Source: Hyphomicrobiales bacterium
GTDB lineage: Bacteria > Pseudomonadota > Alphaproteobacteria > Rhizobiales > Ancalomicrobiaceae
Assembly: GCA_021286855.1 (NCBI GenBank)
Contig: JAJTBO010000004.1
Coordinates: forward strand, 62,001-126,000
Direction: 5' to 3'
Length of the DNA stretch: 64,000 nucleotides
The notes under the pieces are model-generated. The model worked only from the letters and a program-made list of their open reading frames with translations, had not been told where the DNA came from and searched no databases. Positions 5,646 through 42,590 of this stretch are shown piece by piece (the stretch's first letter is position 1; every line of letters begins with the position of its first letter). The translations under genes were made by a program, and so were the position numbers.

Positions 5646-6080
5646 GACGATCGAAGCATGAGAGCGAAGGATCGACGCTTCGCCCGGATTTGCGGTCGAA
5701 TCTGGGCGAAGGCTCCGTCGTTCGCGGCGGGGCAGACATGCCTTCGGCGCGACCCGACGTCGCGCCGAAGGCGGCGGCGACCGTCGCGACGCCCTCACAC
5801 GCCGAACCTCGCGCCGGCGTCGAGGTTGACCATGACCGAACCGGGCGAGACGATGGGGTGGATTCGTGCCTCGGCGGCGGGTTCGGAACCGTTCTGGAAG
5901 GGGAAACGGCGCGGTCTCGACAGGTGTCCGCGCAAAGTCATATGATGACTTGACGTGAGAGCCGCGACATCGACCCGGTCGTCGACGGGAGCGGACCTTC
6001 GGCCGGCGATTCCTTTTCCTCTCCCTTCCCTTCCCTTCCCTTCCCTTCCCTTCCCTTCCCTTCCGCGAGTGGAGACAACC
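5646..6080. other. Divergent intergenic region between MFS and ppc
   Basis: No gene is seen. It holds a perfect 13-bp inverted repeat (CCTTCGGCGCGAC at 5741-5753 with GTCGCGCCGAAGG at 5759-5771). It also holds the operator-like palindrome AAGTCATATGATGACTT (5935-5951), about 130 nt before ppc. The promoters of both flanking genes should lie here. The pentanucleotide tract at its right end is listed separately. Confidence 0.4.
6026..6064 (+). repeat. (TTCCC)n simple sequence repeat, 7.8 copies, in the ppc leader
   Basis: Seven perfect TTCCC units plus a partial eighth end 16 nt before the ppc start codon, immediately upstream of the ribosome-binding region (GTGGAGACA). The strand is pure polypyrimidine. 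Copy number of such tracts can change by slipped-strand mispairing, which would alter the spacing between promoter and start region. Confidence 0.9.
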
Positions 6081-26348: not shown

Positions 26349-26508
26349 CGAAGGGATCGCCATGGGCGCATGCGCCGTTCTTCGGGCGCAGGCGTGTTTA
26401 CCTGCGCCGTGAACGTGGGGTGGCAGGGCCACCGGCACGTCGGTGCGCCGCCGAGCGAAGGAGGCTCGGCGGCGAAGGCTCGGTCGCGCTCGGGGGAGGC
26501 CGTCGCGA

Positions 26509-26784
26509 TCAGCGATAGCGGCAGACGCGACGTTCGAGCGTGTTGCTGTAGTAGCAATACCGGCTGCCGCGGCGCGGTCGGGTGGCGTCCGCCACCACCG
26601 CGCCGACCGCCGCGCCGGCGACACCGCCGACGACTGCGCCGCCGACGCTGTTGGACGCGGCGCCGCCGATGATGGCACCGCCGATGCCGCCGATGCCGGC
26701 GCCTTCGGCCATGCGGGTGTCACGGGCATTGGCACAGGCGCCGAGAGACAGGGCGGCGACGGCGAGGACGATGAAGGTTCTCAT
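26509..26784 (-). CDS. Glycine-zipper lipoprotein
   Basis: A 91-residue small envelope protein. The signal sequence (MRTFIVLAVAALSLGAC) ends in a lipobox, so Cys17 should be lipidated. The middle is a glycine zipper (GAGIGGIGGAIIGGAAS then GGAVVGGVAGAAVGAVVA), typical of the 17-kDa antigen/OmpA-associated glycine-zipper families, followed by a basic Cys-containing tail (RYCYYSNTLERRVCRYR). A GAGGTAG ribosome-binding site precedes the ATG. Probably outer-membrane associated; role unknown, often stress related. Confidence 0.88.
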   Translation of the reverse strand: MRTFIVLAVAALSLGACANARDTRMAEGAGIGGIGGAIIGGAASNSVGGAVVGGVAGAAVGAVVADATRPRRGSRYCYYSNTLERRVCRYR

Positions 26785-26874: not shown

Positions 26875-27630
26875 TCACCGACCTGCCGGCGGCATCGGAA
26901 GCTGGCCATCGCCTTGCGGCGCCTGCCGTTGCTGCATCTGCGGTCGCTGGAGGCGATCGGTGCGGCCGACGTTGCGCGGCGGATCGGAACGCATGACGCC
27001 CTGCGGTGCCCGAACCTTCGGCGGTTCGACGATCCGGTCCTGAGATTTCACAACTGGCTCCCCAGGTTTCACCGCGTCGATCCGCATGGTGCGGGGAACA
27101 GGGGAGCCGACGTTCGGCGGCATCGGCTCGGGGCCGCCGACCCGCGGCGGGGTGTTGCCGTAGCGCGGCGGCATCTGACCGGGACGGCCGATCCGCGGCG
27201 GATTGGCGAGATGCGGCGGCATCGGTCCGTGACGGCGCCACCAGCGCCGTTCGTTGTACCAGGGACGCTCGGCGTAGTGGCTGCCCCAGTAGTCGGCCAT
27301 GCCGAAGGACAGGATGGCCAGGCCGAGCGCCGCTCCGCCGTCCGACAGATAGACGCGGCGACCGTCGCGCAGGAAGCCGATGCGGCGACCGGGGAACCAG
27401 CCGCGTTCGCCGTCGACCGCCACGTCGCACCAGGTGTAGCGACGGAGGCAGCCGATGACGTCGAGTTCGGTGCCGGCGGAGACCCGCATGACGGCGGGGT
27501 AGTCGGAACCTGCGCCGGCGCGCAGCGTTCCCGACGAGCGGGCGAAGCCGTCGGCGGCGAGTGCGGCCGACGGCAGGGTCAGGAGGGCGAGACCCATGGT
27601 CAGGCCGCGGAGGATGGAGCGCGTGTTCAT
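26875..27630 (-). CDS. Secreted SH3-domain protein
   Basis: 251 residues from the ATG at 27628-27630. The start is chosen because it begins a clear signal peptide (MNTRSILRGLTMGLALLTL, cleavage after ALA); the open frame upstream is not coding-like. Residues about 30-90 form a bacterial SH3 domain (LRAGAGSDYPAVMRVSAGTELDVIG, then the WCDVAVDGERGWFPG segment). The C-terminal half is Pro/Arg-rich and repetitive (PPRIGRPGQMPPRYG, PPRVGGPEPMPPNVG). A periplasmic or cell-wall-binding role is inferred. Its distance from the lipoprotein gene (90 nt, same strand) allows co-transcription. Confidence 0.86.
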   Translation of the reverse strand: MNTRSILRGLTMGLALLTLPSAALAADGFARSSGTLRAGAGSDYPAVMRVSAGTELDVIGCLRRYTWCDVAVDGERGWFPGRRIGFLRDGRRVYLSDGGAALGLAILSFGMADYWGSHYAERPWYNERRWWRRHGPMPPHLANPPRIGRPGQMPPRYGNTPPRVGGPEPMPPNVGSPVPRTMRIDAVKPGEPVVKSQDRIVEPPKVRAPQGVMRSDPPRNVGRTDRLQRPQMQQRQAPQGDGQLPMPPAGR

Positions 27631-27749: not shown

Positions 27750-28229
27750 TCAGGCACGGGGAATGTGCGACTCGACCAGCCAGAGCTGTTGGTCAATGCC
27801 GCGGGAGATCTCGGTGAACAGGTCGGCGGTGGCGACGTCGCCGAAGACCGTCGACGAGCCGATCGCCTCGCGGGACGACTGGCCGAAGGCGGCGAGCGAG
27901 CCGGCGACGGCGAAGAGGTGTTCGGGCTCGTCGGCGATGCCGAGGTAGTAGGGCACCAGGAACGAGCGTTCCGCCGCCACCTGGACGGTGCCGTGAGCGG
28001 TTCCGCCCAGACCGGCCGCACGTTCGGCGAGGAGATCGGACCAGGCCCCGACCTCCGCCGCGACGTCGTCGAAGAGCTTGTGGACCGCGATGAAGCTCGG
28101 ACCACGGACGTTCCAATGGGCCTGCTTGACCTGCGCCTGCAGGTCGATCGACGCCGCCAGATGCGTGTTGAGTAGTTCGATCGATTGCGCGCGAATGTTT
28201 TCGGAGAGCGTGTTGTGGGTCGGTTTCAT
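27750..28229 (-). CDS. dps: Dps-family DNA-protection ferritin
   Basis: A 159-residue ferritin-like protein that in this family forms a dodecamer, oxidises and stores iron and shields DNA during starvation or peroxide stress. The ferroxidase ligands are visible in KQAHWNVRGPSF (His) and DDVAAEVGAWSDLLAERAAGLGG (Asp/Glu). It ends LWLVESHIPRA like other rhizobial Dps proteins. GGAG precedes the ATG at 28227-28229. The neighbours are envelope and stress genes, consistent with general-stress control. Confidence 0.95.
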   Translation of the reverse strand: MKPTHNTLSENIRAQSIELLNTHLAASIDLQAQVKQAHWNVRGPSFIAVHKLFDDVAAEVGAWSDLLAERAAGLGGTAHGTVQVAAERSFLVPYYLGIADEPEHLFAVAGSLAAFGQSSREAIGSSTVFGDVATADLFTEISRGIDQQLWLVESHIPRA

Positions 28230-28878
28230 CGTGAAACTCCAGTGCTCGATGGTGCCGAAGGTCGTCCCCGTCGCCGAATACGATCCATCGGACCGAGCGC
28301 TGCGAGGCGGTTGCCTTCCGTAAGTCGTCGAGAGGAATGGTATCGAGGGGGAGCGAAAGGACGGCAGGCTCGGAAACTACTCAATCCGGATGGAGGTCGA
28401 CTTTCCGGACCCGCGATCATTTCTCTCGGGACCTGCGGACCGGGACGGCGTCGCAGCGGGGGAGGGACGCGCTCGTCGGCCCGACCGGCGGCTGTGGTCC
28501 GATCCGCGGCGCGGCGGTGGCACGCTACTACGACGTCGGGGCCGGTGAGGTCGTCGCACGGGGGGATAGGGCGACGGCAACCTCGGCGGCCGTCTCGAGG
28601 GAGTGCCGGGTTTGCAGGTCGCCGCCGTCGCCCGAGGTCGGGGACGAGGGGGGCGGATCTCACCATTTCCATCAGAGCGATCGGCAGCGACCCGAGCCGA
28701 CCCTGCGACGGTGACACGTCGGAGTGGAGGGTCGGAATCTACTCATCGCGAAATCGAGGTCCGGGAAAGCACGCGCAGGACCGGTTCTCGCCGATCTCTC
28801 CGACGGATCGGGTAAAGGCGTGATAGAATTCCCGGTGGTTCATCCTCGTGGGCGGATCGGCTGGAGAACGAGAGTCGC
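28230..28878. other. Long divergent intergenic region with two copies of a 13-base motif
   Basis: No gene could be supported in 649 nt; the open frames here look like random GC-rich sequence. It holds the leftward promoter of dps and the rightward promoter of the CheB/CheR fusion. The recurrent motif TCGGAAACTACTC is at 28370-28382 and TCGGAATCTACTC at 28732-28744 (135 nt before the fusion gene). A possible -10 TAGAAT lies at 28822-28827. Confidence 0.45.
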
Positions 28879-31800
28879 ATGTCGAACGACCGACCGGTTC
28901 CCCCCTCGGATCCCGTGACGCCGTCGGCCGACCCGCGCGAAGGCCTCACCGTCGTCGGCATCGGCGCCTCGGCGGGAGGCTTGGAGGCCTGTCGGCGGTT
29001 GCTCGCCTCGCTGCCCGCCGGTCACGGCATGGCCCTGGTGCTGGTGCAGCATCTCGACCCCACTCACGAAAGCCTGATGGCGGATCTCCTCGCCGGCCAT
29101 ACGTCGATGACGGTGGCGCAGGCGAGCGACGGCGAAAGGCTTCGCCCCGATCACCTCCATCTCATCCCGCCCGGCGCCTATCTCGCGGTCGAAGACGGGG
29201 TGCTGCGCGTGACCCGCCCGCAGGCCCGCCATGGCGCGCGGCTGCCCTTCGACTACTTTCTCGTGTCGCTGGCGCGGTCCTGTGGGCCGCGCGCCGTCGC
29301 GGTGGTGCTGTCGGGCTCGGGCGCCGACGGCAGCGGCGGCCTACCGGCGGTCGAGGCCGCCGGCGGCTTCGTCGTCGTCCAGGATCCGGACGAGGCCGGC
29401 TTCGACGGCATGCCGCGCAGCGCCATCGCCACCGGCACCGTCGACGCGGTGCTGCCGGTCGACGAGATCGGCCCAGCCCTGGTCGGGCATCTTCGGGGCG
29501 TTCGAGATCCGGCATCGGTGGATCCGGATCTCGCGACTTCGACGGATCGACTGGCCGAGATCGTCGACCTGTTGCGCGCCCACACGCCGCACGACTTCCG
29601 CCTCTACAAGCCGGGCACGCTCCGGCGGCGGATCGAGAGGCGGGTGGCGGCGGTGGGAGCCGCCGATGCCGCAGCCTACCTCGAACGACTGCGCGGCGAT
29701 CCGCACGAATTGGAGATTCTCGCCGCCGATCTCCTGATCAACGTCACCGGCTTCTTCCGCGACGCCGACGTCTTCGACCACCTCGCGACGACGATCGTGC
29801 CGGATCTGGTGCGAGATCGCTCGCCCGATCGGCCCATCCGCATCTGGGTCCCCGGCTGCAGCACCGGCGAGGAGGCCTATTCGCTGGCGATGGTGTTCCT
29901 CGAGGCGATCGCCGCCTCGAAGCGCAGCCTCAAGCTCCAGGTCTTCGCCTCGGACGTCGATGCCGACGCGGTGGCGACGGCGCGCGAGGGGCTCTATCCG
30001 ACGACCATCGAGGCCGACGTCTCGGCGGAGCGGCTCGCCCGCTTCTTCGTGAAGGAGGAGCACGGCTGGCGGGTCACGCCGGACCTGCGTGGCGTCGTGG
30101 TCTTCACCGTCCAGGACCTCCTCACCGATCCGCCGTTCTCCCGCCTCGATCTCGTCTCCTGCCGCAACCTGTTGATCTATCTCGGCAGCGAGGCGCAGGA
30201 GAAGGTCCTGGCGCTGTTCCACTTCGCCCTGCGCGAGGGGGGGCTGCTGCTGCTCGGCAATTCGGAGACCGCCGGCGACGTCGACGGCCGCTTCGAAGCT
30301 CTCTCCAAGCCCGGACGTCTCTTCCGCCGCATCGGGCCCGGCCGGGCCGGCGACTTCGGTCCGGTCTCGGGAGGCGACGGCACCACCACGGAGTTCCGCC
30401 GCCAGCCGGGTCGAACGCCGAAGCGCCAGGCGAGCCTCGCCGAGCTGTGCCGCCGTCTGGTGATCGAGGATTTCGCCCCCGCGGCGGTGTTGATCGATCG
30501 CAAATACGAATGCCTCTACACGCTCGGGCCGATCGACCGCCATCTCCGGGTGGCGCCGGGAGCGCCCAGCCACGACCTCCTCACCCAGGTGCCGGAAGCC
30601 CTGCGGATCAAGTTGCGCTCGGCGATCCAACGCGCCGTCCAGGACGATGTCCGTGTGGTCGTCGACGGCGGACGGATCGCCCGCGACGGCATCGAGGTGC
30701 CCTTCTCCATCGACGTCCGCCCGGTCCACGAGCCGGGCGAGGAGCCGATGTTCCTCGTCTGCTTCGTCGAAGAGCGGCCGCAGAGCCCGCGCGGCGATCT
30801 GCCCGTCGACGACGACGACGATCCGCGCATCGTCGAACTCGAGCGTGAACTCGACGTCACCCGGCGCGAACTCCAGGGCGCGATCCGCAGCCTGGAGGTC
30901 TCCGTCGAAGAGCAGAAGGTGGTCAACGAGGAGGCGCTCTCCGCCAACGAGGAGTTCCAGTCGACCAACGAGGAACTCCTGACCTCGAAGGAGGAGTTGC
31001 AGTCGCTCAACGAGGAACTGACCGCGCTCAACGGACAGCTCCAGGAGACGCTGGAGCGCCACCGCACCACCTCGAACGATCTGCAGAACGTTCTCTATTC
31101 GACCGACGTGGCGACGCTGTTCCTCGACACCGATCTCAACATCCGCTTCTTCACTCCGGCGACCCGGTCACTGTTCAGCATCATCTCGAGCGACGTCGGC
31201 CGGCCGCTCGCCGATCTGCGCTTCCTCGCCGCCGACGCGGCGTTGCTCGACGACGCGAAGGCGGTGATGCGCAGCTCGACGCCGGTCGAACGCGAGATCG
31301 AGGCGCCCGGCGGCCAGTGGTTCATTCGCCGCGTCCTGCCCTATCGCACCCTCGACGACGGCATGGCGGGGGTGGTGATCACCTTCGTCGACGTCACCGA
31401 ACGGCGCCGCATCTCCGAGGCGCTCGACGCCGCCAAGCGAGAGGCCGAGCGCGCCAGCCTCGCCAAGTCGCGCTTCCTCGCCGCCGCCAACCACGATCTG
31501 CGCCAGCCGTTGCAGACGCTCTGCCTCTTGCAGGGTCTGTTGGCCGGCGCGGTGGAGAGCGACAAGGCGAAGCGGCTGGTGGCGCGCTTCGAGGACGCTC
31601 TCGGCGCCATGACCGGCATGCTCGACACGCTGCTCGACATGAACCAGATCGAGGCGGGGACGGTCCAGGTCGAGCTCGCCGACGTGCCGATCGGCGAGGT
31701 CTTCGAGCGCATGGCCGGCGAGTTCTCCTATGCGGCGGAGAGTAAGGGCCTCGAGCTCGGGGTGTGTCCGACCACTCAGGTGGCGCGCACCGATCGACGC

Positions 31801-33228
31801 CTGCTCGAACAGATGATCCGCAATCTCCTCGCCAATGCGCTGAAATACACGCCGCACGGCAAGATCGTGCTCGGCTGCCGGCGGCACGGCGCCACCCTGC
31901 GCATCGAGGTGTGGGACACCGGCATCGGCATCGCCGCGAAGGATCTCCAATCGATCTTCGAGGAATACCACCAGATCGACAACGCCGCCCGCGATCGCAG
32001 CCTGGGCCTCGGTCTCGGCCTGTCGATCGTCCAACGCCTCGCCGATCTCCTCGGCCATCGGGTCCGCGTCGAGTCGCGTCCGGGGCAAGGGTCGATGTTC
32101 TCGATCGAGGTGCCACGGCTGGTCGCCCCCCGCCGGCCGGCGCCGACGATCCCCGCCGCCGACACAACGCCCGCCCCGACACCGGTCGGCGCGCGCCGCA
32201 ACGGGTCGATCCTGGTGGTCGAGGACGAGCCGGACGTGCGCGATCTCCTGGAACTGGTTCTGGAGCGCGAGGGCCATCTGGTGGTCGCGGCGGCCGACGG
32301 CGTCGCCGCGGTGAGGTTGGTGGCGGAGGGGACGCTGCGTCCCGATCTGGTGCTCGCCGACTTCAATCTGCCCGGCGGTCTCGACGGGCTCGGGGTCGTG
32401 GCGCGGCTGCGCGAGGAGAGCCGCCGGCCGCTGCCGGCGATCATCCTGACCGGCGACATCTCGCCCGACACGCTGCGCGACATCGTCGACCAGGACTGCC
32501 TGCATCTCGACAAACCGTTGAAGGCCGAGGCCCTGATCGCCGCCGTCGACAGTCTGCTCGCCGCGCCGGCGCAACGGCCCGTCACGAAGCCGCGGCCCGA
32601 TACGGCCGCGCCGCCGCCGGCCACACCGATGACGCAGGTCTGGCTGGTCGACGACGATGCCCACTTCCGATCGGAGATCGGCGCGCTGCTGGCGGCGGAA
32701 GGCTTGACGGTCGCCGCCTACGACAGCGGCGAGGCCTTTCTCGCGGCCTACCGCCCGGGTGGCGAGGCCTGCCTATTGATCGACGCCGCGCTGCCGGGGA
32801 TGAGCGGGCTCGATCTGCTGCACCGGCTCGCCGCCGAGGGGCACGCCCTGCCGTCGATCATGATCACCGGCCACGGCGACGTGGCCATGGCGGTCGAGGC
32901 GATGAAGGCGGGGGCGGTCGACTTTCTGGCGAAGCCGGTCGGCCGTGACGACCTGATGGCCTGCGTGCGGCGAGCGCTCTCCAACGCTCGCGACGACGAG
33001 CGCGAGGCCGCCACGCGCGAGGAGGCGGTGCAGCGGCTCGCCGGTCTGACACCGCGCCAGATCGAGATCATGGAAAGAGTCCTCGCCGGCCATCCGAGCA
33101 AGAACATCGCCACCGATCTCGGCATAAGCCAGCGCACCGTCGAGAACCATCGCGCCGCGATCATGAAGAAGACGGGCGTGAAGTCGCTGCCGGCGCTGGC
33201 ACGCCTGGTCGCCGCCGCCGCCGGTTGA
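28879..33228 (+). CDS. CheB-CheR-PAS-histidine kinase-REC-REC-LuxR fusion protein
   Basis: 1,449 residues combining, in order, these parts. A CheB methylesterase (GASAGG Ser31, QHLDP His58, GSGADGSGG) is followed by a CheR-type SAM methyltransferase (PGCSTGEEAYSLAMVF near residue 327, SCRNLLIYL). A long coiled coil is rich in ANEEFQSTNEELLTSKEELQ. Then come a PAS domain (LFLDTDLNIRFFTPA) and a kinase with H872 in NHDLRQPLQ and the G1/G2 boxes DTGIGIA and GLGLGLS. Receiver 1 has D1161 and receiver 2 has D1302. A LuxR/FixJ-type helix-turn-helix ends the chain (TPRQIEIMERVLAG, KNIATDLGISQRTVENHRAA). CheB/CheR hybrid kinases are known in alphaproteobacteria. Ending in a complete FixJ-like response regulator is unusual: the protein could sense, relay and bind DNA itself. 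No membrane span is visible, so it is cytoplasmic. The signal and targets are unknown. Confidence 0.92.
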   Translation: MSNDRPVPPSDPVTPSADPREGLTVVGIGASAGGLEACRRLLASLPAGHGMALVLVQHLDPTHESLMADLLAGHTSMTVAQASDGERLRPDHLHLIPPGAYLAVEDGVLRVTRPQARHGARLPFDYFLVSLARSCGPRAVAVVLSGSGADGSGGLPAVEAAGGFVVVQDPDEAGFDGMPRSAIATGTVDAVLPVDEIGPALVGHLRGVRDPASVDPDLATSTDRLAEIVDLLRAHTPHDFRLYKPGTLRRRIERRVAAVGAADAAAYLERLRGDPHELEILAADLLINVTGFFRDADVFDHLATTIVPDLVRDRSPDRPIRIWVPGCSTGEEAYSLAMVFLEAIAASKRSLKLQVFASDVDADAVATAREGLYPTTIEADVSAERLARFFVKEEHGWRVTPDLRGVVVFTVQDLLTDPPFSRLDLVSCRNLLIYLGSEAQEKVLALFHFALREGGLLLLGNSETAGDVDGRFEALSKPGRLFRRIGPGRAGDFGPVSGGDGTTTEFRRQPGRTPKRQASLAELCRRLVIEDFAPAAVLIDRKYECLYTLGPIDRHLRVAPGAPSHDLLTQVPEALRIKLRSAIQRAVQDDVRVVVDGGRIARDGIEVPFSIDVRPVHEPGEEPMFLVCFVEERPQSPRGDLPVDDDDDPRIVELERELDVTRRELQGAIRSLEVSVEEQKVVNEEALSANEEFQSTNEELLTSKEELQSLNEELTALNGQLQETLERHRTTSNDLQNVLYSTDVATLFLDTDLNIRFFTPATRSLFSIISSDVGRPLADLRFLAADAALLDDAKAVMRSSTPVEREIEAPGGQWFIRRVLPYRTLDDGMAGVVITFVDVTERRRISEALDAAKREAERASLAKSRFLAAANHDLRQPLQTLCLLQGLLAGAVESDKAKRLVARFEDALGAMTGMLDTLLDMNQIEAGTVQVELADVPIGEVFERMAGEFSYAAESKGLELGVCPTTQVARTDRRLLEQMIRNLLANALKYTPHGKIVLGCRRHGATLRIEVWDTGIGIAAKDLQSIFEEYHQIDNAARDRSLGLGLGLSIVQRLADLLGHRVRVESRPGQGSMFSIEVPRLVAPRRPAPTIPAADTTPAPTPVGARRNGSILVVEDEPDVRDLLELVLEREGHLVVAAADGVAAVRLVAEGTLRPDLVLADFNLPGGLDGLGVVARLREESRRPLPAIILTGDISPDTLRDIVDQDCLHLDKPLKAEALIAAVDSLLAAPAQRPVTKPRPDTAAPPPATPMTQVWLVDDDAHFRSEIGALLAAEGLTVAAYDSGEAFLAAYRPGGEACLLIDAALPGMSGLDLLHRLAAEGHALPSIMITGHGDVAMAVEAMKAGAVDFLAKPVGRDDLMACVRRALSNARDDEREAATREEAVQRLAGLTPRQIEIMERVLAGHPSKNIATDLGISQRTVENHRAAIMKKTGVKSLPALARLVAAAAG

Positions 33229-33313
33229 CCGGCGCTCCGTCGCGCTTCGCCCCGACCGAGATTCCGGAGTCCATCCTCGGCGCTGCCCGCCGCCCCTCGG
33301 CCGAGGTGCCGGC

Positions 33314-33688
33314 TCAGTCGATGACGTCGACGATCCGGCGAGTGGTGAGATCGACGAGGACGGGATGCCCGTCGACGATGGCGTAGCTGAACGCACGGAC
33401 GCCGAATTCGGCGGGAACCTCATGATAGGTCACGCCCCGCGCGGGCAGAACCGCGCCGATGACCACCGCTCGACCGTAGGTGTAGGAGGTGTGGTGCCTG
33501 CGAACGACGTATCGGCGAAAGCGCGGGCGTTGGCCGGGGGCGAAGAGCCCGGCGAAAATTCTGTCCGCCGGAACGACGCCGGTGGCGAGAGCCGCGTCCT
33601 CGACGCCCCCGCCGACGCCCTGGGCTCCCGCGGCGATCGTCGACGTCAACGTCGCTGCCAAGGCGGCGGCGATCATCGTCTTCTTCAT
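33314..33688 (-). CDS. Secreted DUF1236-like protein
   Basis: 124 residues. A signal peptide (MKKTMIAAALAATLTSTIAAGAQ) is followed by a low-complexity stretch. The C-terminal half contains GAVLPARGVTYHEVPAEFG, then YAIVDGHPVLVD with TTRRIVDVID, the pattern of DUF1236/RcnB-like periplasmic proteins of Rhizobiales. GGGAG precedes the ATG. A copy of the recurrent 13-mer points at this gene from 275 nt upstream. Function unknown; probably envelope stress. Confidence 0.82.
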   Translation of the reverse strand: MKKTMIAAALAATLTSTIAAGAQGVGGGVEDAALATGVVPADRIFAGLFAPGQRPRFRRYVVRRHHTSYTYGRAVVIGAVLPARGVTYHEVPAEFGVRAFSYAIVDGHPVLVDLTTRRIVDVID

Positions 33689-34150
33689 GTGGAACTCCCA
33701 TCGCCGTTTCCGAGACTTCGCCGAAGCGCTCGAGCGTGGCGTCGCTCGATCGTATTCGTCCTGTTCGGGTCCGTTGTTCGAGTTGGTCGGATCCGGAAGG
33801 GTGCAATTCCGGCGGCCGGAGATCGCGCGAGTTCTCTGTGCGGAGAATGGATCCGAAGAGAATTGCGGCGAAAGAATCGGAAACTACGCGGCTCGATGGC
33901 GAAGATCCCGTTGGCGCTCCGATGATGCGGGCTCGAGTTCGGCGTGGAAGTCGGGGGACCTCGAGTAGATTCCGAGGCTGCCTCCCCACGGGTGTCCTGC
34001 CTAGGCTCCGTCTCGGTCCCACTCGACGACCATGTCGGCGAATTCCGTCGGCCCGCCGCGCTCTGCCGGAGGTGACGAAGGCGCCGGTTCCCCCTGCTTC
34101 GTGCGGTCCGACGATCGGACGAAGGCGCACTCCGACAAGGAGCCCCGATA
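33689..34150. other. Divergent intergenic region with facing 13-base motifs
   Basis: No gene is supported in 462 nt. TCGGAAACTACGC lies at 33877-33889 on the + strand, toward the His-rich gene. TCGGAATCTACTC lies at 33963-33975 on the - strand, toward the DUF1236 gene. The two copies therefore point across each other to opposite genes, as expected for overlapping divergent regulatory regions. Confidence 0.45.
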
Positions 34151-34384
34151 TTGGCCCTCCCTCCCAAACATCTCGCCACGGAACACCACCACCAGGCGGC
34201 GTCTCATCATCATGCCGCCGCGCACCATCATCATCAGGCTGCGTATTTCTACGAGCAGGGGGATCACGACGCGGCCGAAAGCCACGCCGCCGCGGCCCTC
34301 GAGCAAAGCGAGCTCGCGCAGCGACAATCCACCACCGCACATGCGCGGTCCCGTGGCGGATCGCTGCAGTCGTCCGAACATTGA
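34151..34384 (+). CDS. Histidine-rich small protein
   Basis: 77 residues beginning ALPPKHLATEHHHQAASHHHAAAHHHHQAAYF (quoted in part: TEHHHQAASHHHAAAHHHH), then a helical AAESHAAAALEQSELAQRQS segment. It starts with TTG at 34151, supported by AAGGAG eight bases upstream; no ATG is available. The histidine clusters suggest metal (Ni, Zn, Cu) binding. Very similar short proteins are common unannotated companions of stress genes in Rhizobiales. It precedes csbD by 59 nt on the same strand. Confidence 0.72.
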   Translation: MALPPKHLATEHHHQAASHHHAAAHHHHQAAYFYEQGDHDAAESHAAAALEQSELAQRQSTTAHARSRGGSLQSSEH

Positions 34385-34443
34385 CGGCGATCGGACGCCG
34401 CGCATCCGGCGCGAAGCACGCCGCGACACTCCAGGAGACAGTG

Positions 34444-34614
34444 ATGAACAAGGATCGTATCGCCGGTTCGGCCAAACAGACCGTCGGCAGCATCAAGGAA
34501 ATGGCCGGCAAGGCCCTCGGCGACCCCGAGATGGTCGCCGATGGCAAGGCCGAACAGGTCGAAGGCAAGGTTCAGAGCGCCGTCGGTGGTCTGAAGGACG
34601 CCTTGAAGCCGTGA
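34444..34614 (+). CDS. CsbD-family stress protein
   Basis: 56 residues: MNKDRIAGSAKQTVGSIKEM, then AGKALGDPEMVADGKAEQVEGK and GLKDALKP. This is the complete CsbD repeat pattern (a small four-helix, highly charged protein induced by the general stress response). Lys/Glu-rich, soluble, no catalytic residues. AGGAGACAG precedes the ATG. Its exact biochemical role is unknown in all organisms. Confidence 0.94.
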   Translation: MNKDRIAGSAKQTVGSIKEMAGKALGDPEMVADGKAEQVEGKVQSAVGGLKDALKP

Positions 34615-34909
34615 GTTCGGGACGAGACGGAGGCGGCGTTCACGCCGTTCTCCGATTCCCGCACGGATTGCGAACGCATGAGGGACTCCTCATGCAACGC
34701 GCTCCAGCCTCTTCGGCCGGTCACGCCGTCGTCGGCGCGTCGCGGCTTGCGCCGGCGCACTCGAAGTCTGGGATCGGACGTCGTTCCTCTGCGTCGTCGT
34801 CGAGGGATCGCCGGAGAACCTGCCCGATCACGCCTACGCCGATCGAACCGTCCCGACGTGCCGGCCACAGTCCCTGCTGCCGGTGCGTCGATGGTCGAGG
34901 AGACACCCC
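34615..34909. other. Intergenic region between csbD and DUF3309 gene
   Basis: 295 nt without a supportable gene. A short hairpin-prone stretch (GGCGGCGTTCACGCCGTTC around 34632) follows csbD and may end its transcript. No other structure was seen. Confidence 0.35.
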
Positions 34910-35068
34910 ATGAGTATCGGCACCATTCTGCTGATCGTCCTCATCCTCTTCCTGGTCGGCGCACTGCCGAACTGGCCGCACTCTTCCCGTTGGGGCTACG
35001 GCCCCAGCGGCGCCGTCGGCGTGATCCTGATCATCGTCGTCGTCCTGCTCCTCCTCGGCCGGATCTGA
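34910..35068 (+). CDS. DUF3309 small membrane protein
   Basis: 52 residues: MSIGTILLIVLILFLVGALP, the signature PNWPHSSRWGYGPSG, and a second hydrophobic helix (VGVILIIVVVLLLLGRI). Both the double-helix topology and the WPHSRxWGYxPSG linker identify DUF3309. Inner-membrane, function unknown, usually part of stress regulons. GAGGAG lies eight bases before the ATG, which decides the start over an upstream in-frame codon. Confidence 0.93.
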   Translation: MSIGTILLIVLILFLVGALPNWPHSSRWGYGPSGAVGVILIIVVVLLLLGRI

Positions 35069-35330
35069 TCCGATGGCCAGCCGCCCCGTGCCGGCTGCGG
35101 CCGGTTCAGGGTGCGCGCTCTGCGACGCCGGTTGTGCCGGCCGGCGCACACGACAGGCCGTTCGCCGGTGATCGAGGTGTCGAAACCGCCCGTCGGCGGG
35201 GTCGGCTCCACGTCGACGCCCACGCCTCGGCCCATCCCGACGGAGAAATCCGCGGGCAGGTGGCGAAGGCCGGATGGGTGCGACCGTCGCGCCGCCGCCG
35301 GTTCCCGAGCCGCGGACGGAACATTGAACA

Positions 35331-35350
35331 GGCGCCCCGATCGGGGCGCC
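35331..35350. promoter_or_regulatory. Perfect 20-bp palindrome before the DUF3096 gene
   Basis: GGCGCCCCGATCGGGGCGCC is fully self-complementary and touches the ribosome-binding site GAAGGAG (35351-35357) of the next gene. It may fold as an RNA hairpin shielding translation or act as a DNA operator. The rest of the 295-nt gap (35069-35363) shows no gene. Confidence 0.55.
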
Positions 35351-35363
35351 GAAGGAGCGGACC

Positions 35364-35507
35364 ATGACCCTCGGAATCGCCCAAGTCCAGCCGATCGTCG
35401 CCCTGATCGCCGGCGTCCTCATCCTCGTGATGCCACGGCTGTTGAACTACATCGTCGCCGTCTTCCTGATCGTCTCCGGACTGCTCGGCCTCGGCCTGAT
35501 CCGCTGA
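35364..35507 (+). CDS. DUF3096 small membrane protein
   Basis: 47 residues: MTLGIAQVQPIVALIAGVLI, then LVMPRLLNYIVAVFLIVSG and LLGLGLIR. The QPIxALIAGxLIL-PRLLNYIVA pattern is DUF3096, a two-helix inner-membrane protein of unknown function. GAAGGAG precedes the ATG and a terminator-like hairpin follows, so it is probably monocistronic. Confidence 0.93.
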   Translation: MTLGIAQVQPIVALIAGVLILVMPRLLNYIVAVFLIVSGLLGLGLIR

Positions 35508-35531
35508 GGCCTTCCTCGCCTTCGCCGAAGC

Positions 35532-35565
35532 GGCCGCTCCCGGGAACAAGTCCTCGGGAGCGGCC
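35532..35565 (+). terminator. Hairpin after the DUF3096 gene
   Basis: GGCCGCTCCCG (35532-35542) pairs perfectly with CGGGAGCGGCC (35555-35565) around a 12-nt loop. It lies 24 nt after the stop; no strong T-run follows. Confidence 0.65.
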
Positions 35566-35658
35566 CGGTTCACGTGGTCTCCCTCGCCGGTGGGTCATCG
35601 GGCGATCCGGCGATCCGGCGCCGCTTCGGAGGCCGTTCGCGGCGCGAGCCCGTCGGGA

Positions 35659-36096
35659 TCACCTGCCGCGCCCGGCACCGATGACCATCGGCTTCAGGAT
35701 CTGGAAGCCGCGTGGAAAGGGCAGCGACGCGACGCCGGAGGCGACCATCTGGGTGACGATCTCCAGGCTGCGGCGCAGATCGGCGAAGCTGTAGGGTTTG
35801 GAGAGGCAGGCGTCGCCGGGGGCGCCGTTTTGCAGCAATTGGCGCGTGTTGCCGGTGGCATAGAGCACGCCGACCCGTCCCAGCGAGGTCAATCGGCCGG
35901 GGATCTCGGTGCCGAGACCGCCGTCGGCGAGGCGGACGTCGAGGACCAGGAGGTCGGGGTGGTGTTCGAACGCGAGCGCCACGGCTTCGTCGACCGCACG
36001 AGCGACGCCGCAGACCCCGTAGCCACAACCGACCAGGAAGTCCTTCGTCATCTCCGCGATCATCGGGTCGTCTTCGACGATCAACACCTCGAGCAT
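35659..36096 (-). CDS. Single-domain response regulator
   Basis: 145 residues with one CheY-like receiver domain: the acidic pair in VLIVEDDPMIAE, phospho-acceptor Asp in DLLVLDVRLADGG, Thr/Ala switch region in VLYATGN, and Lys in CLSKPYSFADL. A short C-terminal tail (FQILKPMVIGAGRGR) carries no output domain. GAGAAGG precedes the ATG at 36094-36096. Small receivers of this type act as phosphorelay intermediates in alphaproteobacterial stress signalling. A link to the large hybrid kinase at 28.9-33.2 kb is possible but unproven. Confidence 0.92.
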   Translation of the reverse strand: MLEVLIVEDDPMIAEMTKDFLVGCGYGVCGVARAVDEAVALAFEHHPDLLVLDVRLADGGLGTEIPGRLTSLGRVGVLYATGNTRQLLQNGAPGDACLSKPYSFADLRRSLEIVTQMVASGVASLPFPRGFQILKPMVIGAGRGR

Positions 36097-36239
36097 CGTC
36101 GTACCTTCTCTGTTGCCGTGATGCCGCCCCACCGTGTCGACGCCAGCTACGCACGCCGCCATTGCCGACCGCGACCACCGGAATAAACCCATGCCGTACG
36201 CCCGCCGGCGTGGCGACGACGCCCGGGCTGGCCTCCGGC

Positions 36240-37103
36240 TCATCCGGTGACGGAGACGTCCACGCTCATGCCGAGGACGTCGCCCGACGCTCCATGGAAG
36301 CTGCCCGCCACCGGGACGGCCTGGCGGATGTCGCGGACGACCGCGACCGGGATCAAGTCGGCGCCGCCGACGCTGCGGTTGGTCGGATCGAAGGTGATCC
36401 AACCGGCGCCGGGAACATAGACCTCGGCCCAGGCATGGGTCGAGCCGCCGCCGGCCGAGCCGATGGCCTCGTGGCTCGGATCGTGGAGATAGCCCGAGAC
36501 GATCCGTGCTCCGAAGCCGAGGGTGCGGACGGCTTCGGCGAGGAGCACCGCGAAGTCGCGGCAGGAGCCCCAGCCGCGGTCGAGCGTCTCGGTCGGCGAC
36601 TGTGTCCCCTCGTCGTCGCGCGACTGGTAGGAGATTCCGGTGGAGACGCCGGCGGCGATGTCCTTGAGCAGCGAGAGCGTGTCGGTCGACGGCCCGCGCA
36701 CGAAGGCCTGCACCCAGGCGCAGAGCCGCCCGGCCGGATCGGCGAACTGCGGGGTCGACAGAGTGCCGAGATCGGCCCATTCGCCGTCGTCATAGCGGAA
36801 GGGGAAGCGGATCGCCGAAGCTGCGATGGTGAAGACCGGCCAAGCGGCGGCGTCGAGACCGAGCCTCACGCGACTGTCGATCACCAGTGTCTCGGTCCTC
36901 GACGTGAATGTAGCGGTGGCGACGGCATTGCCGAAGACGTCGTGGGCCCAGGTCAGCGACGCCGGCGGCGTCGTCAGCAGATCCATCGAGGTCAACCGCA
37001 ACTCCCGGCTCTCGCGCGGCCGCAACAGCAGGCGATGGGGCCAGAGTTCGACCGGGCGTCGATAGCGGTAGGTGGTGACGTGGCGGATTTCGAGGTCGAT
37101 CAT
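36240..37103 (-). CDS. Transglutaminase-like cysteine protease-fold protein
   Basis: 287 residues. The N-terminal region (IRHVTTYRYRRPVELWPHRLLLRPRE) is the bacterial transglutaminase-like N domain. The catalytic core shows Cys in DRGWGSCRDFAVLLAEAVRTLG, His in GGSTHAWAEVYVPG and Asp in WITFDPTNRS, so the triad is complete. No signal peptide, so it is cytoplasmic. These proteins are thought to act as peptidases or amidases, but substrates are unknown. A reverse copy of the recurrent 13-mer lies 173 nt upstream. Confidence 0.93.
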   Translation of the reverse strand: MIDLEIRHVTTYRYRRPVELWPHRLLLRPRESRELRLTSMDLLTTPPASLTWAHDVFGNAVATATFTSRTETLVIDSRVRLGLDAAAWPVFTIAASAIRFPFRYDDGEWADLGTLSTPQFADPAGRLCAWVQAFVRGPSTDTLSLLKDIAAGVSTGISYQSRDDEGTQSPTETLDRGWGSCRDFAVLLAEAVRTLGFGARIVSGYLHDPSHEAIGSAGGGSTHAWAEVYVPGAGWITFDPTNRSVGGADLIPVAVVRDIRQAVPVAGSFHGASGDVLGMSVDVSVTG

Positions 37104-37429
37104 GGGGGACTCGCCGATGGTCCTTGTCGAGGAGGCGCGGCCGATCGGGTCGAGACGGGAGCATCCATTCCCTACGAAAGCCGCGGGATCACCATCGCCG
37201 ATGGAGCGGCCTCATCGACAGCTTCGGAAACTACTCCGCAGGCTCGGGCGGCGAGCCGAGCGGGACGAGCCGCTCGAGTAGTTTCCGAGCCTGCCGACGG
37301 TCGGCCTCGGCAGTCATGGTCGGCGAAGAGAAGTTCGATCCGCCCGCGCCGCTCCCCTACTGGACCGACGCCTCTCGAGAGGTCGCCCTCGGTGCGTTCA
37401 CGGGCAAGGGGTGGGGGAAGGTTTCGTCG
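37104..37429. other. Divergent intergenic region with inverted pair of the 13-base motif
   Basis: 326 nt without a supported gene. TCGGAAACTACTC (37224-37236, + strand) and its reverse complement (37276-37288) form an inverted pair separated by 39 nt of GC-rich sequence. Each copy reads away from its partner's gene start in the manner of divergent promoters or operators. A cruciform or RNA hairpin is also possible. Confidence 0.5.
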
Positions 37430-37576
37430 ATGACCCGTAATCTCGTCTATGTCGTCGCCGTCGTGCTCGCCGTCACTTCGACCGTCTTCGGTTATCAGCT
37501 CTGGCGCGAACGCCAGAGGAGCGAAGGCGTCGAGATCCGCGTCGACGATCACGGCATCTCCATCGAGAAGCGTTGA
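37430..37576 (+). CDS. Small membrane-anchored protein, 48 residues
   Basis: MTRNLVYVVAVVLAVTSTVF is a single N-terminal transmembrane helix, followed by GYQLWRERQRSEGVEIRVDD and HGISIEKR, a short hydrophilic tail likely folded as a beta hairpin. GGGGGAAGG lies upstream of the ATG. The helix plus GIEI-x-V-x-x-xGISIE tail recurs in hypothetical proteins of Rhizobiales. Topology N-in/C-out or the reverse cannot be settled; function unknown. Confidence 0.8.
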   Translation: MTRNLVYVVAVVLAVTSTVFGYQLWRERQRSEGVEIRVDDHGISIEKR

Positions 37577-37656
37577 GCCGCCATTGCCGACGCGATCGTC
37601 CGTCGCGCCGTTCCGCCGCCGGCGGATGACCAGGCCGAACCGAAAGCAACACCAAC

Positions 37657-37878
37657 ATGACCCACGATCTCGCCTTCACGGTCGGAGACGTCGTCTCCTG
37701 TACCGACCGCCCCGACGGTCCCTCGCATCGCTGCACGGTGATCCGGGTGATGCCGGTCGAGCACGCGATCCGCAGCTATCGAGTCCGCGACGAAGCGGAA
37801 GCCTTCGACCGCGCCGTCGAGGAATCGGCGCTCACCCTGCTGCCGCGGTCGGCCGTCGAAGGCGTTTTCGACCTCTGA
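37657..37878 (+). CDS. 73-residue protein, paralogue of 15497-15718
   Basis: Shares the RCTVIRVMPVE core and the following RSYRVRDEAEAFDRAVEES helix with the protein at 15497-15718. The lengths are identical and both genes sit next to small single-helix membrane-protein genes. The N-terminus differs (FTVGDVVSCTDRPDGPSH). Soluble and without known motifs. It follows the 48-codon membrane gene by 80 nt on the same strand and may be co-transcribed. Confidence 0.8.
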   Translation: MTHDLAFTVGDVVSCTDRPDGPSHRCTVIRVMPVEHAIRSYRVRDEAEAFDRAVEESALTLLPRSAVEGVFDL

Positions 37879-37947
37879 CGGTCGCTTGCGACTTCGCCGA
37901 GCGATGCCTCGGTTCGCCCTGCGCGCCCCGGCGCCCGCGGATGCACC

Positions 37948-39347
37948 TCACACCATGTCCTCGGGTCTGACCCAGGCGTCGAACTCCTCCGGCCCGACGT
38001 GACCGGAGGCGATCGCCGCCTCGCGCAGGGTGAGCCCCTCGCGGTGCGCCGTCTTGGCGATCTCGGCGGCGCGGTCGTAGCCGATGTGGGGGGCGAGCGC
38101 CGTCACCAGCATCAAGGAGCGCGCGACCAATTCGGCGATGCGGGCGCGGCTCGGCTCGATCCCCCGCACGCAATGGCGCTCGAAACTCCGCAGGCCGTCG
38201 CTCATCAGGCGTAGGCTCTGCATCACCGCGTCGATGATCACCGGCTTGTAGACGTTGAGCTCGAAATTGCCCGAGGCGCCGGCCATCGTGACGGTGACGT
38301 CGTTGCCGAAGATCCGGACACAGGCCTGGATCAGCGCCTCGCACTGGGTCGGATTGACCTTGCCCGGCATGATCGAGCTGCCCGGCTCGTTCTCGGGGAT
38401 GGTGATCTCGCCGAGCCCACTGCGTGGCCCCGAGGCGAGCCAACGCACGTCGTTGGCGATCTTCATCGCCGCCGCCGCCAACCCTTTCAGCGCGCCGTGG
38501 GCGTGGACGATGGCGTCGTGGGCGGCGAGCGCTTCGAACTTGTTGGGGGCCGAGACGAAGCCGAGCCCGGTCGACCGGTCGAGTTCGGCGGCGACGCGGG
38601 CGCCGAAGTCGGGCGGGGTGTTGAGGCCGGTGCCGACCGCGGTGCCACCGATCGCCAGTTCGCGCAGATGTGGCAGCGTGTCGACGAGATGGGCCTCGGC
38701 GTGATCGAGCTGGGCGACCCAGCCGGAGATCTCCTGGCCGAGGGTCAGGGGGGTGGCATCCTGGAGATGGGTACGGCCGATCTTGACGACGTCGGCGAAT
38801 GCGCGCGCCTTGTCGGCGAGGGTGGCGCGCAGCGTGCGCAGCGCCGGCAGTAGATCCTCTGTCAGCGCTCGCGTCGCGGCGACGTTCATGGCGGTGGGGA
38901 AGACGTCGTTGGAGGACTGACCGCGATTGACGTCGTCGTTGGGGTGGACCAGCCGCGCGACGCCGATCTCGCCGCCCATCAGCTGCGAGGCGCGGTTGGC
39001 CAGCACCTCGTTCATGTTCATGTTGGTCTGGGTGCCCGAGCCGGTCTGCCACACCACCAGCGGGAACTCGTCGTCGTGGCGCCCCGCCAGCACCTCGTCG
39101 GCGGCCGCGACGATCGCCGCCGCCTTGCCGGCGTCGAGGAGGCCGAGAGCGCCGTTGACGGTCGCCGCGGCACGCTTGACCAGAGCGAGGGCCCGGATCA
39201 ATTCCCGCGGCATGCGCTCGTCGGAGATGGCGAAATGCTTCAGCGAGCGCTGGGTCTGCGCTCCCCACAGGCGGTCGGCGGTACGGCGATGTCGCCGAAG
39301 CCGTCGCGTTCGATCCGGGTGGGTCGGGTCGGCGTCGGGTCGGTCAT
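37948..39347 (-). CDS. fumC: Class II fumarate hydratase with an apparent 1-nt frameshift near the N-terminus
   Basis: Hydrates fumarate to malate in the TCA cycle; a cytoplasmic, iron-independent homotetramer in the family. The main frame shows [19 protein letters not shown], the [10 protein letters not shown] box and the signature [16 protein letters not shown] with the catalytic Ser loop. The natural start appears to be the ATG at 39345-39347 ([23 protein letters not shown]). That frame then runs into a stop, while the expected continuation ([23 protein letters not shown]) is in the next frame. The sequence CCGCCGACCGC at about 39274-39284 is one G short of what joins the two. As given, the intact open frame starts only at the ATG at 39213 (421 residues), lacking roughly 43 residues with the [12 protein letters not shown] segment. 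Either a true mutation or a sequencing error. Confidence 0.85.
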
Positions 39348-39418
39348 CTGATCCTCACGGGGCGCGAATGGGGCTCCGACGGGTCGCATCGCCGGACTCC
39401 GGGGCGCGCGGCGCTCCC

Positions 39419-42136
39419 TCAACCGGCGGCGAGGGTGCGCAACACGAAGGGAAGAATACCGCCGTTCTCGAAATAGGTGACCTCGTCGAGCGTATCGATG
39501 CGGACGAGTACCTCGACCGAGCGGCGGAAGCCGTCGGGCCGGGTGATCTCCAGCGTCAGGGTCTGGCGCGGGCGAAGCCCCGCCGCGAGGCCGCCGATCG
39601 ACACCGTCTCCGCCCCGGTCAGCCCCAGCGACTGCCAGCTGTCGCCCTCCAGGAATTGCAAGGGCAGCACGCCCATGCCGACCAGATTGGAGCGGTGGAT
39701 GCGCTCGTAGGAGCGGGCGACGACGGCGCGCACCCCGAGGAGCCGCGTCCCCTTGGCCGCCCAGTCGCGCGACGAGCCGTTGCCGTATTCGCTCCCCGCG
39801 AAGACCACCAGCGGTACCTTCTCCGCCGAATATCGCATCGCCGCGTCGTAGATCGAGGCGCGCTCGCCGGAGGGGTGAATGACCGTCCAGCCGCCTTCGA
39901 CCACCTCGCCCGCCTCGTCGCGCACCATGAAGTTCTTGATGCGGATGTTGGCGAAGGTGCCGCGCACCATCACCTCGTGATTGCCGCGCCTCGTGCCGTA
40001 CTGGTTGAAGTCCTTCACCGCGACGCCGTGTTCCGAGAGATAGCGACCGGCCGGCGAGGCCGGCTTGATCGAGCCGGCGGGTGAGATGTGATCGGTGGTG
40101 ATCTTGTCGCCGAAGAGGGCGAGGATGCGGGCCCCGACGACGTCGACGACCGGCGTCGGCGTCGCCGTCATCCCCTCGAAATAGGGCGGGTTGCGCACAT
40201 AGGTCGAGGCGTCGTCCCAGGCATAGGTCTCGCCGCCTTCGCTCGCCACCGCCTCCCAGCGCGCGTCGCCGGCGAAGACCTGGGCGTATTTCTCCTCGAA
40301 CAGCGCCGCGGTGACATGGGCGTCGGTGATCGCCTTGATCTCGGCCGCCGACGGCCAGATGTCGGCGAGGAACACCGGCCGCTCGTCGGCGCCGTGGCCG
40401 AGCGGTTCGCGGGTCATGTCGATGCGGGTGGTGCCGGCCAGCGCATGGGCGACCACCAGCGGCGGCGAGGCCAGCCAGTTGGCCTGGACGTCGGGCGAGA
40501 TCCGGCCCTCGAAGTTGCGGTTGCCGGAGAGCACCGCCGCCGCGACGATGCCGTGTTCGGCGATGGTCTTGGAGATCTCCGGCGCCAGCGGCCCGGAATT
40601 GCCGATGCAGGTGGTGCAGCCGAAGCCGACGAGATCGAAGCCGAGCGCGTCGAGATCGGCCTGGAGCCCGGAGGCGGCGAGATAGGCGGCGACCACCTGG
40701 CTGCCCGGCGCCAGCGAGGTCTTCACCCACGGCTTCGGCCGGAGCCCCAGGGCGCGCGCCTTGCGGGCCAGCAGCCCGGCGGCGATCAAGACCGAGGGGT
40801 TGGAGGTGTTGGTGCAGGAGGTGATGGCGGCGATCACCACGTCGCCGTGGCCGAGATCGAAGTCGCGACCTGGAACCGGCCAGCGCTCACCGGCCGCGTC
40901 CGGCACCTTGTAGTCGGCGGCGAGGGCGGCGGCGAACACCGATCCGACGTCGCCGAGCGCCACCCGCTGCTCCGGCCGCTTCGGCCCGGCGAGCGAGGGG
41001 ACGACCGAGCCGAGATCGAGCTCGAGTGTCTCGGTGAAGACCGGATCGGGGGTCGAGGCGTCACGGAAGAGGCCCTGAGCCTTGGTGTAGGCCTCGACCA
41101 GGGCGACCCGCTCGGGCGATCGGCCCGACAGCCGCAGGTAGGAGAGGGTTTCGGCGTCGACGGGAAAGAAGCCGCAGGTGGCGCCGTATTCCGGCGCCAT
41201 GTTGGCGATGGTGGCGCGATCGGCGAGCGTCAGCGCGTCGAGGCCGGTGCCGAAGAACTCGACGAATTTGCCGACGACGCCATGGCGGCGCAGCATCTGG
41301 GTGACGGTCAGCACCAGATCGGTGGCGGTGACGCCTTCGGTGAGCCGGCCGGTCAGTCGGAACCCGACCACCTGGGGGATCAGCATCGACAGCGGCTGGC
41401 CGAGCATCGCCGCTTCCGCCTCGATGCCGCCGACGCCCCAGCCGAGAACGCCGAGCGCGTTCACCATGGTGGTGTGGCTGTCGGTGCCGACGCAGGTGTC
41501 GGGATAGGCGAGCGTGGTGCCGTCCGCGAGCGCGCGCGTCCAAACCGTCTGGGCGAGGTATTCGAGATTGACCTGATGGCAGATGCCGGTGCCGGGCGGC
41601 ACGACGCGGAAGCCGGAGAGCGCGCCGCGGCCCCATTTGAGGAAGGTGTAGCGCTCGCGATTCTGCTCGTATTCGCGCGCCACGTTGAGCGCCAGGGCGG
41701 CGGGGGAGCCGAAGTGATCGACCACCACAGAGTGGTCGATGACGAGGTCGACCGGCACCAGCGGATTGATCTGCGACGCCCGCCCACCGAGCGCCACCAT
41801 GGCGTCGCGCATCGCCGCGAGGTCGACGACGGCGGGCACGCCGGTGAAGTCCTGCATCAGCACGCGGGCCGGGCGGAAGGCGATCTCGCGTTCGTCGCGG
41901 CCCAGCGTCGTCGGCCAGGCGGCGAGCGCTCGGATGTCGTCGGCCGTGACGGAGCGGCCGTCTTCGTGGCGCAACAGGTTCTCGAGCAGCACCCTGAGCG
42001 AGAACGGCAAGCGCGCGATGCCGACGAGCCCGTGGCGCGCCGCGGTGGCGAGGCAGAAGATCGAATGGGAAGTCTCACCGGTTGTGAGGGTGTCTCGGCC
42101 ACCGAAGCTCCGATGGGGGGTGGGTGTCGGGTCCAT
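39419..42136 (-). CDS. acnA: Aconitate hydratase A
   Basis: 905 residues, the AcnA/IRP1-like length; isomerises citrate to isocitrate with a 4Fe-4S cluster. Cluster cysteines are in [10 protein letters not shown] and [12 protein letters not shown], and a conserved substrate-binding segment reads [18 protein letters not shown]. The N-terminus follows the family ([10 protein letters not shown], then the [18 protein letters not shown] segment). GAGAGGAC precedes the ATG at 42134-42136. It sits upstream of fumC on the same strand with a 71-nt gap, so the two TCA genes may share a transcript. Confidence 0.96.
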
Positions 42137-42590
42137 GGCGTCCTCTCGAGCGAAGGGCTGAGCGCCCGGTCGGGTGGGTCGCGATCCCTCGGGCGTCGTC
42201 TACCGGCATTCGCGATCCCGAAACGTCGAGGTGATCTGATCCTCATCTAGGTCAGAACCGGCCTTCGACCACCCGGAGTTCGCGATCGCGTCCCGTCGCG
42301 CCGACGCGTTTCGTCGGTGCCTTCGTGCAGATCGGAGGGTTCCGGCGTTCCGTGGAGAGGATAGACGCGCTCGGGGTCTTGCGAAGATTCGGAAACTACC
42401 CACCTCCGCGGGTCGTGCGGGAGAACCGAGAGCGGGCGTTCGCCGCCCGCTCCACCGTGAGTCGTCCCGAGCCGGTTTGTCCGAGGCATGGCCTGCTGCA
42501 GGTTCCGCGGACACCGCCTTAGGCGAATTCGGCCATCCGTTCGAACTCTGCCGGGCCGACGTAGTCGACTGGAGAATACATAATTCCCAG
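42137..42590. other. Intergenic region, left edge of the accessory island
   Basis: 454 nt with no supported gene. It carries the acnA promoter and one copy of the recurrent motif (TCGGAAACTACCC, 42389-42401, + strand), which here does not face a nearby gene. The last 60 bases before the recombinase stop are A+T-richer (GAATACATAATTCCCAGTTA). No repeat of the tRNA-Ser 3' end was found by eye. Confidence 0.4.

Follow-up and report, generated by a model that had tools for sequence, protein, structure and literature searches.

A 64,000-nucleotide stretch from a Hyphomicrobiales bacterium of the family Ancalomicrobiaceae (contig JAJTBO010000004.1, positions 62,001 to 126,000; hereafter the window) encodes a fused regulator of 1449 amino acids (28879..33228, +). 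In this protein CheB and CheR, the adaptation enzymes of chemoreceptor arrays, share one chain with a histidine kinase, two receiver (REC) domains, and a DNA-binding output of the FixJ kind. Judged from its sequence and those of its relatives, the protein is probably a methylation-tuned hybrid histidine kinase of the cytoplasm that doubles as a transcription factor and directly controls a local stress regulon. The evidence comes from a long helix with regularly spaced glutamate pairs, which would be the methylation substrate, and from a DNA box that clusters around the gene and co-occurs with it across genomes.

The gene is a single open reading frame, running from ATG to stop without internal stop codons, and its domain order is CheB-CheR-PAS'-helix-PAS-HisKA-HATPase-REC-REC-GerE. 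The CheB methylesterase (residues 26-201; 28954..29481, +; Pfam PF01339, 2.6e-53; Foldseek 1chd and 3sft), with the catalytic residues S31/H58/D150, lacks a REC of its own. It is followed by an S-adenosylmethionine-dependent methyltransferase made up of CheR_N (225-275) and CheR (288-476, 9.3e-49), which together cover 29551..30306 (+; PF03705 and PF01739; Foldseek 5ftw and 1bc5). The next region (514-631; 30418..30771, +) is silent in Pfam, and its predicted alpha/beta fold, modelled with local confidence (pLDDT) mostly between 77 and 95, and its Foldseek matches, which include double-PAS proteins, point to a PAS-like domain, here called PAS'. Beyond the helix come PAS_10 (735-840; 31081..31398, +; PF13596, 1.6e-24) and a NahK/ErcS-like kinase core (862-1080; 31462..32118, +) consisting of HisKA (862-927, with H872) and HATPase_c (972-1080). 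The chain ends with the receivers REC1 (D1161; 32203..32556, +) and REC2 (D1302; 32638..32967, +), each corresponding to a Pfam Response_reg stretch (the best-scoring being 1254-1363, in REC2), and a GerE/LuxR-type helix-turn-helix (HTH) of the FixJ kind (1390-1443; 33046..33207, +; PF00196, 9.2e-16). HisKA scores 26.4 bits, slightly below its cut-off of 26.9, whereas CheB, CheR, HATPase_c, and the other domains exceed theirs.

The original prediction, made from the letters of the window, had described this single chain, and both the reading frame and the Pfam domains bear it out. Its statement that the CheB catalytic residues and the kinase motifs look intact holds throughout a set of 35 orthologue rows: S31 and H58 are found in 35/35 and D150 in 34/35, and the CheR motif GCSTGEE, the kinase residues H872 and N986, and the G1 and G2 boxes are likewise conserved, as are D1161 (35/35) and D1302 (34/34). 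The complete FixJ/NarL-type output that it placed at the C-terminus can also be recognized, since the FixJ structure (PDB 5XSO) aligns with REC2 and the HTH over 196 residues, nearly its whole length (4.9e-41). Since a single frame encodes CheB, CheR, and a kinase, the protein is a CheB-CheR hybrid kinase, and its C-terminal part, a REC followed by a FixJ-type GerE HTH, is a FixJ-type response regulator. It is FixJ-like rather than FixJ itself, scoring 231.8 bits against a cut-off of 255 with the NCBIfam FixJ equivalog PRK09390, and the kinase-REC1 region falls outside the NahK/ErcS family NF041832 (333.2 bits, cut-off 400).

This architecture is conserved and uncommon, but not unique. A scan of contigs with one genome per species, together with a search of relatives, revealed at least 30 loci with all domains in a single open frame at 50-61% identity, in Rhodoblastus, Bosea, Phyllobacterium, Acidiphilium, Oleispirillum, Siculibacillus, and many Acetobacteraceae, Rhodospirillales, and Sphingomonadales. 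An even sample of 289 alphaproteobacterial genomes contains 12 with the PAS-kinase-REC-REC-HTH part (about 4%; E<=1e-150), most of the frames being full length; gene presence in the genome samples was set by E-value thresholds of 1e-100 and 1e-150. The unusual character claimed for the chain thus stands insofar as only a few per cent of species have it, but it belongs to an old, conserved alphaproteobacterial family and is no singleton, so the concern that such an architecture might be common in databases is justified only in part. Four fusion genes (L196, L216, L046, and L047) are broken by a frame change inside or after CheR, through sequencing error or as young pseudogenes.

The helix was absent from the original prediction, and supplies CheB and CheR with a plausible substrate within the chain. 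In the AlphaFold2 model, residues 650-741 (30826..31101, +) form a single continuous helix of 92 residues from PAS' to PAS. It carries six Glu-Glu pairs (677/678, 684/685, 691/692, 698/699, 705/706, and 712/713; 30907..31017, +), spaced by exactly seven residues, which are proposed as methyl-accepting sites. The methylation sites of methyl-accepting chemotaxis proteins (MCPs) such as Tsr and Tar are likewise Glu/Gln-Glu pairs, seven residues apart, on a helix. All 35 orthologues keep the last four pairs unchanged. A de-duplicated set of 99 CheB-CheR-PAS proteins, whose other members share 33-64% identity with the window protein, shows no variation at E691, E692, E712, or E713, just as at S31 and H58 of CheB and the catalytic positions of CheR. 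Generic coiled coils conserve their hydrophobic core, not surface glutamates, and the pattern suggests that the helix is a built-in methyl-accepting substrate. None of the open-licence papers searched was found to describe CheB-CheR hybrids with a methyl-accepting helix; RC1_3878 of R. centenum is just named there as such a hybrid.

The glutamates also follow the presence of CheR. Among 131 distinct chains bearing PAS_10, CheR lies in the same frame in 119, and all of these but one have four to eight pairs in register (118/119; the other has three), with a mean of 6.2 as against 1.7 in composition-shuffled sequences. Within these CheR-bearing coils, glutamate positions are 97% conserved and other positions 56%. 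The 131-chain count is de-duplicated; a 112-row coil comparison counts some loci twice. Five chains (L046, L047, L051, L196, and L216) were excluded from the CheR-less group, being frame-split with CheR in the neighbouring frame. In the seven chains where CheR is lost or degenerate, only 2, 3, 1, 2, 0, 0, and 0 pairs are left, and no intact CheB accompanies them in frame: four chains lack it altogether, L228 shows an altered nucleophile loop (GASADG), L206 has a barely recognizable CheB, and the seventh, described below, lacks H58. Five of the CheR losses within the family tree represent five separate changes, at least three of which are forced by well-supported branches.

The clearest of these cases is Pinisolibacter aquiterrae, a sister species in the same genus (L053/L014/L238), whose 1117-residue frame has lost CheR as one clean internal stretch. 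Its CheB has the catalytic H58 replaced by Q (VRQL instead of VQHL), and its helix has lost one heptad in register and kept only 6/10 glutamates, as compared to 40/48 (83%) of the other positions, which turns round the pattern of the CheR-bearing coils. The PAS-to-HTH part is 75-90% identical, with kinase, receivers, and HTH intact. Having lost CheR, the CheB catalytic histidine, and glutamates together, this species offers a ready-made natural control. Another genus holds both a full protein (L117, genome G324) and a copy (L120/L231, genome G101) that has lost CheB and CheR_N, carries a degenerate CheR (SCRHLLEY), and has no pairs.

The second line of evidence concerns the DNA sites. A dyad search in orthologue upstream regions recovered AGTA-N2-TTCC and its neighbours before 11 of 31 fusion genes, with about zero in shuffles, and the same type of dyad also lies upstream of dps and csbD genes. 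Of 33 orthologous loci, 28 carry the extended box, TGAGTAGWTTCCGAnnCT, with 89 distinct sites in all (reversed control, 0), lying a median of 88 base pairs (bp) before a gene start. The window has eight places within two mismatches of it, with 0.79 expected. In the whole 3.88-Mb genome, the degenerate box occurs at seven sites (control, 0), all within 14 kb of the fusion gene and spanning positions 90366-104401 of contig C23, equivalent to 28366-42401 of the window. The core of the box, GTAGTTTCC, shares 9/10 bases with GTAGTTTCCC, the FixJ consensus from in-vitro selection that PMC4999443 cites, and this fits the FixJ-type HTH of the chain.

Presence of the box follows presence of the gene. 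Among relatives, the exact box is found in 6/8 genomes with the gene and 0/53 without it (p 5e-7), and in the class sample of 289 genomes these figures are 7/12 and 3/277 (p 3e-9), the three stray genomes matching the rate of the reversed control; for the degenerate box they are 9/12 and 8/277 (p 1.4e-10). Two further contigs (G321:C83:15730-16392 and G126:C1:3885807-3903782) hold two boxes each in genomes where no fusion gene passed the threshold used, possibly reflecting a distant or broken copy. The box also persists in G001 and G101, whose fusion copies have lost CheR; methylation would therefore tune the switch and not be needed for DNA targeting. The hunch that a short motif marks the targets is thus strongly supported, and the box is probably the 13-base motif mentioned at the time. 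It came to light only through comparison of orthologous upstream regions, as the repeated 13-mers within the window alone are just low-complexity or coding-type repeats.

Seven predicted operators mark out the candidate targets. One (GAGTAGTTTCCGAGCCT; 28366..28382, -) lies 137 bp upstream of a divergently oriented Dps/ferritin-like gene (27750..28229, -; Pfam Ferritin, 7.7e-16), which is the neighbour at several orthologous loci as well, and another (GAGTAGATTCCGACCCT; 28728..28744, -) precedes the fusion gene itself by 135 bp, predicting autoregulation. Two more lie near a predicted target encoding a DUF1236 protein (33314..33688, -; Pfam): one 185 bp upstream of it (33873..33889, -) and one between it and the CsbD gene (33963..33979, +). 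A divergent pair follows, of which one (37220..37236, -) lies 117 bp upstream of a transglutaminase-like gene (36240..37103, -; Pfam), also a predicted target, and the other (37276..37292, +) is its partner. The last (42385..42401, -) lies 249 bp upstream of an aconitase gene (39419..42136, -; Pfam), at this distance the weakest of the predicted targets.

We infer a scheme for the signal, the methylation, the phosphotransfer, the DNA binding, and the direction of regulation. The PAS domains would sense a cytoplasmic signal, while CheR would methylate, and CheB demethylate, the Glu-Glu heptads of the chain's own helix, acting in cis or across to the partner protomer. The helix is flanked by the sensor PAS domains and precedes the kinase, so that its methylation state would determine the kinase's working point, much as MCP methylation does for CheA. 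The kinase would autophosphorylate at H872 and pass the phosphate to REC1 (D1161), as a modulator or sink, and to REC2 (D1302). Phosphorylated REC2 would then allow the HTH to bind the TGAGTAGWTTCCGAnnCT boxes at its own promoter and at the neighbouring stress genes, such as dps and that for DUF1236. The intramolecular relay of the original prediction does not fit this chain: the Pfam scan finds no histidine phosphotransfer (HPt) domain between the two receivers, so that a classical Asp-His-Asp multistep phosphorelay within it is not indicated and the term relay is unsuitable. It is likelier that the kinase phosphorylates REC2 directly and that REC1 acts as a modulator.

Several points weigh against methylation of the helix and control of the boxes by the fused protein. 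Instead of serving as a substrate, the heptads could form a docking face or an acidic signaling coil. Only the copies that keep the coil (Pinisolibacter, L120, L124, L228, and L206) bear on the glutamates, as L015 and L122, where the coil is deleted together with the enzymes, are mute on them. The absence of a regulatory REC in CheB leaves control of the proposed demethylation unaccounted for. Since the genome encodes 24 MCPs and another CheR apart from the fusion, the fusion could also act on MCPs. The box is missing from some gene-bearing genomes, in its exact form from G003 and G018 and in both forms from G095 and G330. Finally, the genome encodes other FixJ-like regulators, and co-occurrence cannot name the protein that binds the box.

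The strongest alternative, still an unlikely one, is that the CheB and CheR domains modify chemoreceptors or other proteins, the chain linking chemotaxis adaptation to transcription and the helix being a structural or docking coil. The 24 MCP genes, with just one other CheR, favor it, and the same joint loss of CheR and glutamates would be expected if the coil recruited CheR by docking; against it, catalytic residues are no more invariant across the 99 proteins than the heptad glutamates, which decay with CheR while the remaining helix stays. It is rather improbable that the methylation module is a vestige or scaffold and that the working system is a one-chain two-component system of PAS, kinase, two receivers, and HTH. 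Several lineages without CheR and CheB do retain the kinase, both receivers, and the HTH, and box persistence in G001 and G101 agrees with this, but in most members the CheB and CheR catalytic residues are all conserved at 50-61% overall identity, as would not be expected of a vestige. Similarly little weight is given to the box being bound by another of the FixJ-like regulators, or being a promoter element, since it tracks the fusion gene across 289 and 61 genomes and, in its own genome, is found only around that gene. That the chain is an assembly artefact joining two genes, by an error near 32600-32640, is practically inconceivable, as orthologues of 50-61% identity read through this junction without a frame break in many independent assemblies, isolates included.

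The genetic neighborhood of the fusion gene makes its predicted regulon look like a local stress-protection island. Besides the genes named above, it includes a CsbD-like stress protein gene (34444..34614, +; Pfam CsbD, 1.8e-17) and a gene for a DUF3309 small membrane protein (34883..35068, +; Pfam, 8.4e-23), both recurrent neighbours. At orthologous loci the fusion gene again adjoins dps, csbD, DUF3309, and YflT-type stress genes, as found by a clustering that used a codon-position filter against antisense shadow frames of GC-rich loci. EcfG-type general stress promoters (GGAAC-N15-18-GTT) were considered as a link and rejected, since the search gave only a palindromic match at 27505-27531 and one more at 52809.

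Other neighbours recur as well. A CheY-like receiver gene lies close by in the window (about 35767-36090, -), and stand-alone receivers adjoin the fusion gene in L028, L032, L038, L039, L052, L055, and L011; these could be partners, and the idea in the original prediction that the chain works without diffusible partners is not supported as worded. A protein of about 70 residues with no Pfam match also recurs beside it, often with a box upstream (L026, 7001-7225; L021, 6750-6950; L011, 6077-6316; L027, 12392-12619). An apparent cyclic glucan synthase (17835-26735, -; 2966 residues from the first start codon) is encoded in the window, and its counterpart adjoins the fusion in L023, L030, L044, and L238. 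Farther away, positions 6022-6064 hold a tandem 5-base repeat (GGAAG).

Several known systems resemble the chain in part. The FixJ likeness lies in the REC2-HTH alignment and the nearly identical box core, with the consensus taken as PMC4999443 gives it; unlike FixJ, the protein is fused to its own kinase, its box continues as TTCCGAnnCT, and its predicted targets are stress genes instead of fixK or nifA. NahK/ErcS-type hybrid kinases are alike in the kinase-REC1 region, but the N-terminus differs here and REC2-HTH is added. In Pseudomonas putida, cfcABCDE groups a sensor kinase gene with genes for CheB and CheR that play no part in chemotaxis, although these are separate genes and the output is cyclic di-GMP signaling (PMC4951495). 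With MCPs, the chain shares seven-spaced Glu-Glu pairs on a long helix and the proposed action of CheR and CheB. Unlike MCPs, it combines enzymes, substrate, kinase, and output, and the Pfam scan finds no MCPsignal domain (PF00015) in it, so that it would only work like an MCP without being one.

Also close are CheB-CheR-PAS hybrids, for example those of Rhizobium, Methylocystis, and Caballeronia plasmids; related chains of this kind are common on plasmids and carry just the annotation 'chemotaxis protein CheB'. They share CheB, CheR, the Glu-Glu helix, PAS, and often the kinase; many have other C-termini, whereas the sublineage described here ends in a REC and a FixJ-type REC-HTH. There is about an even chance that these hybrids form a general self-methylating class with a built-in methyl-accepting helix, of which the present sublineage would bring adaptation and direct control of a local stress regulon through a FixJ-type box together in one polypeptide. 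Many bacteria carry such chains, and no description of their substrate was found in the open-licence papers searched. If this substrate is their own helix, methylation memory of the receptor type would also operate in soluble kinases and in direct gene control, and the defined operator and handful of target genes found here would provide an immediate readout for a self-methylating gene switch.

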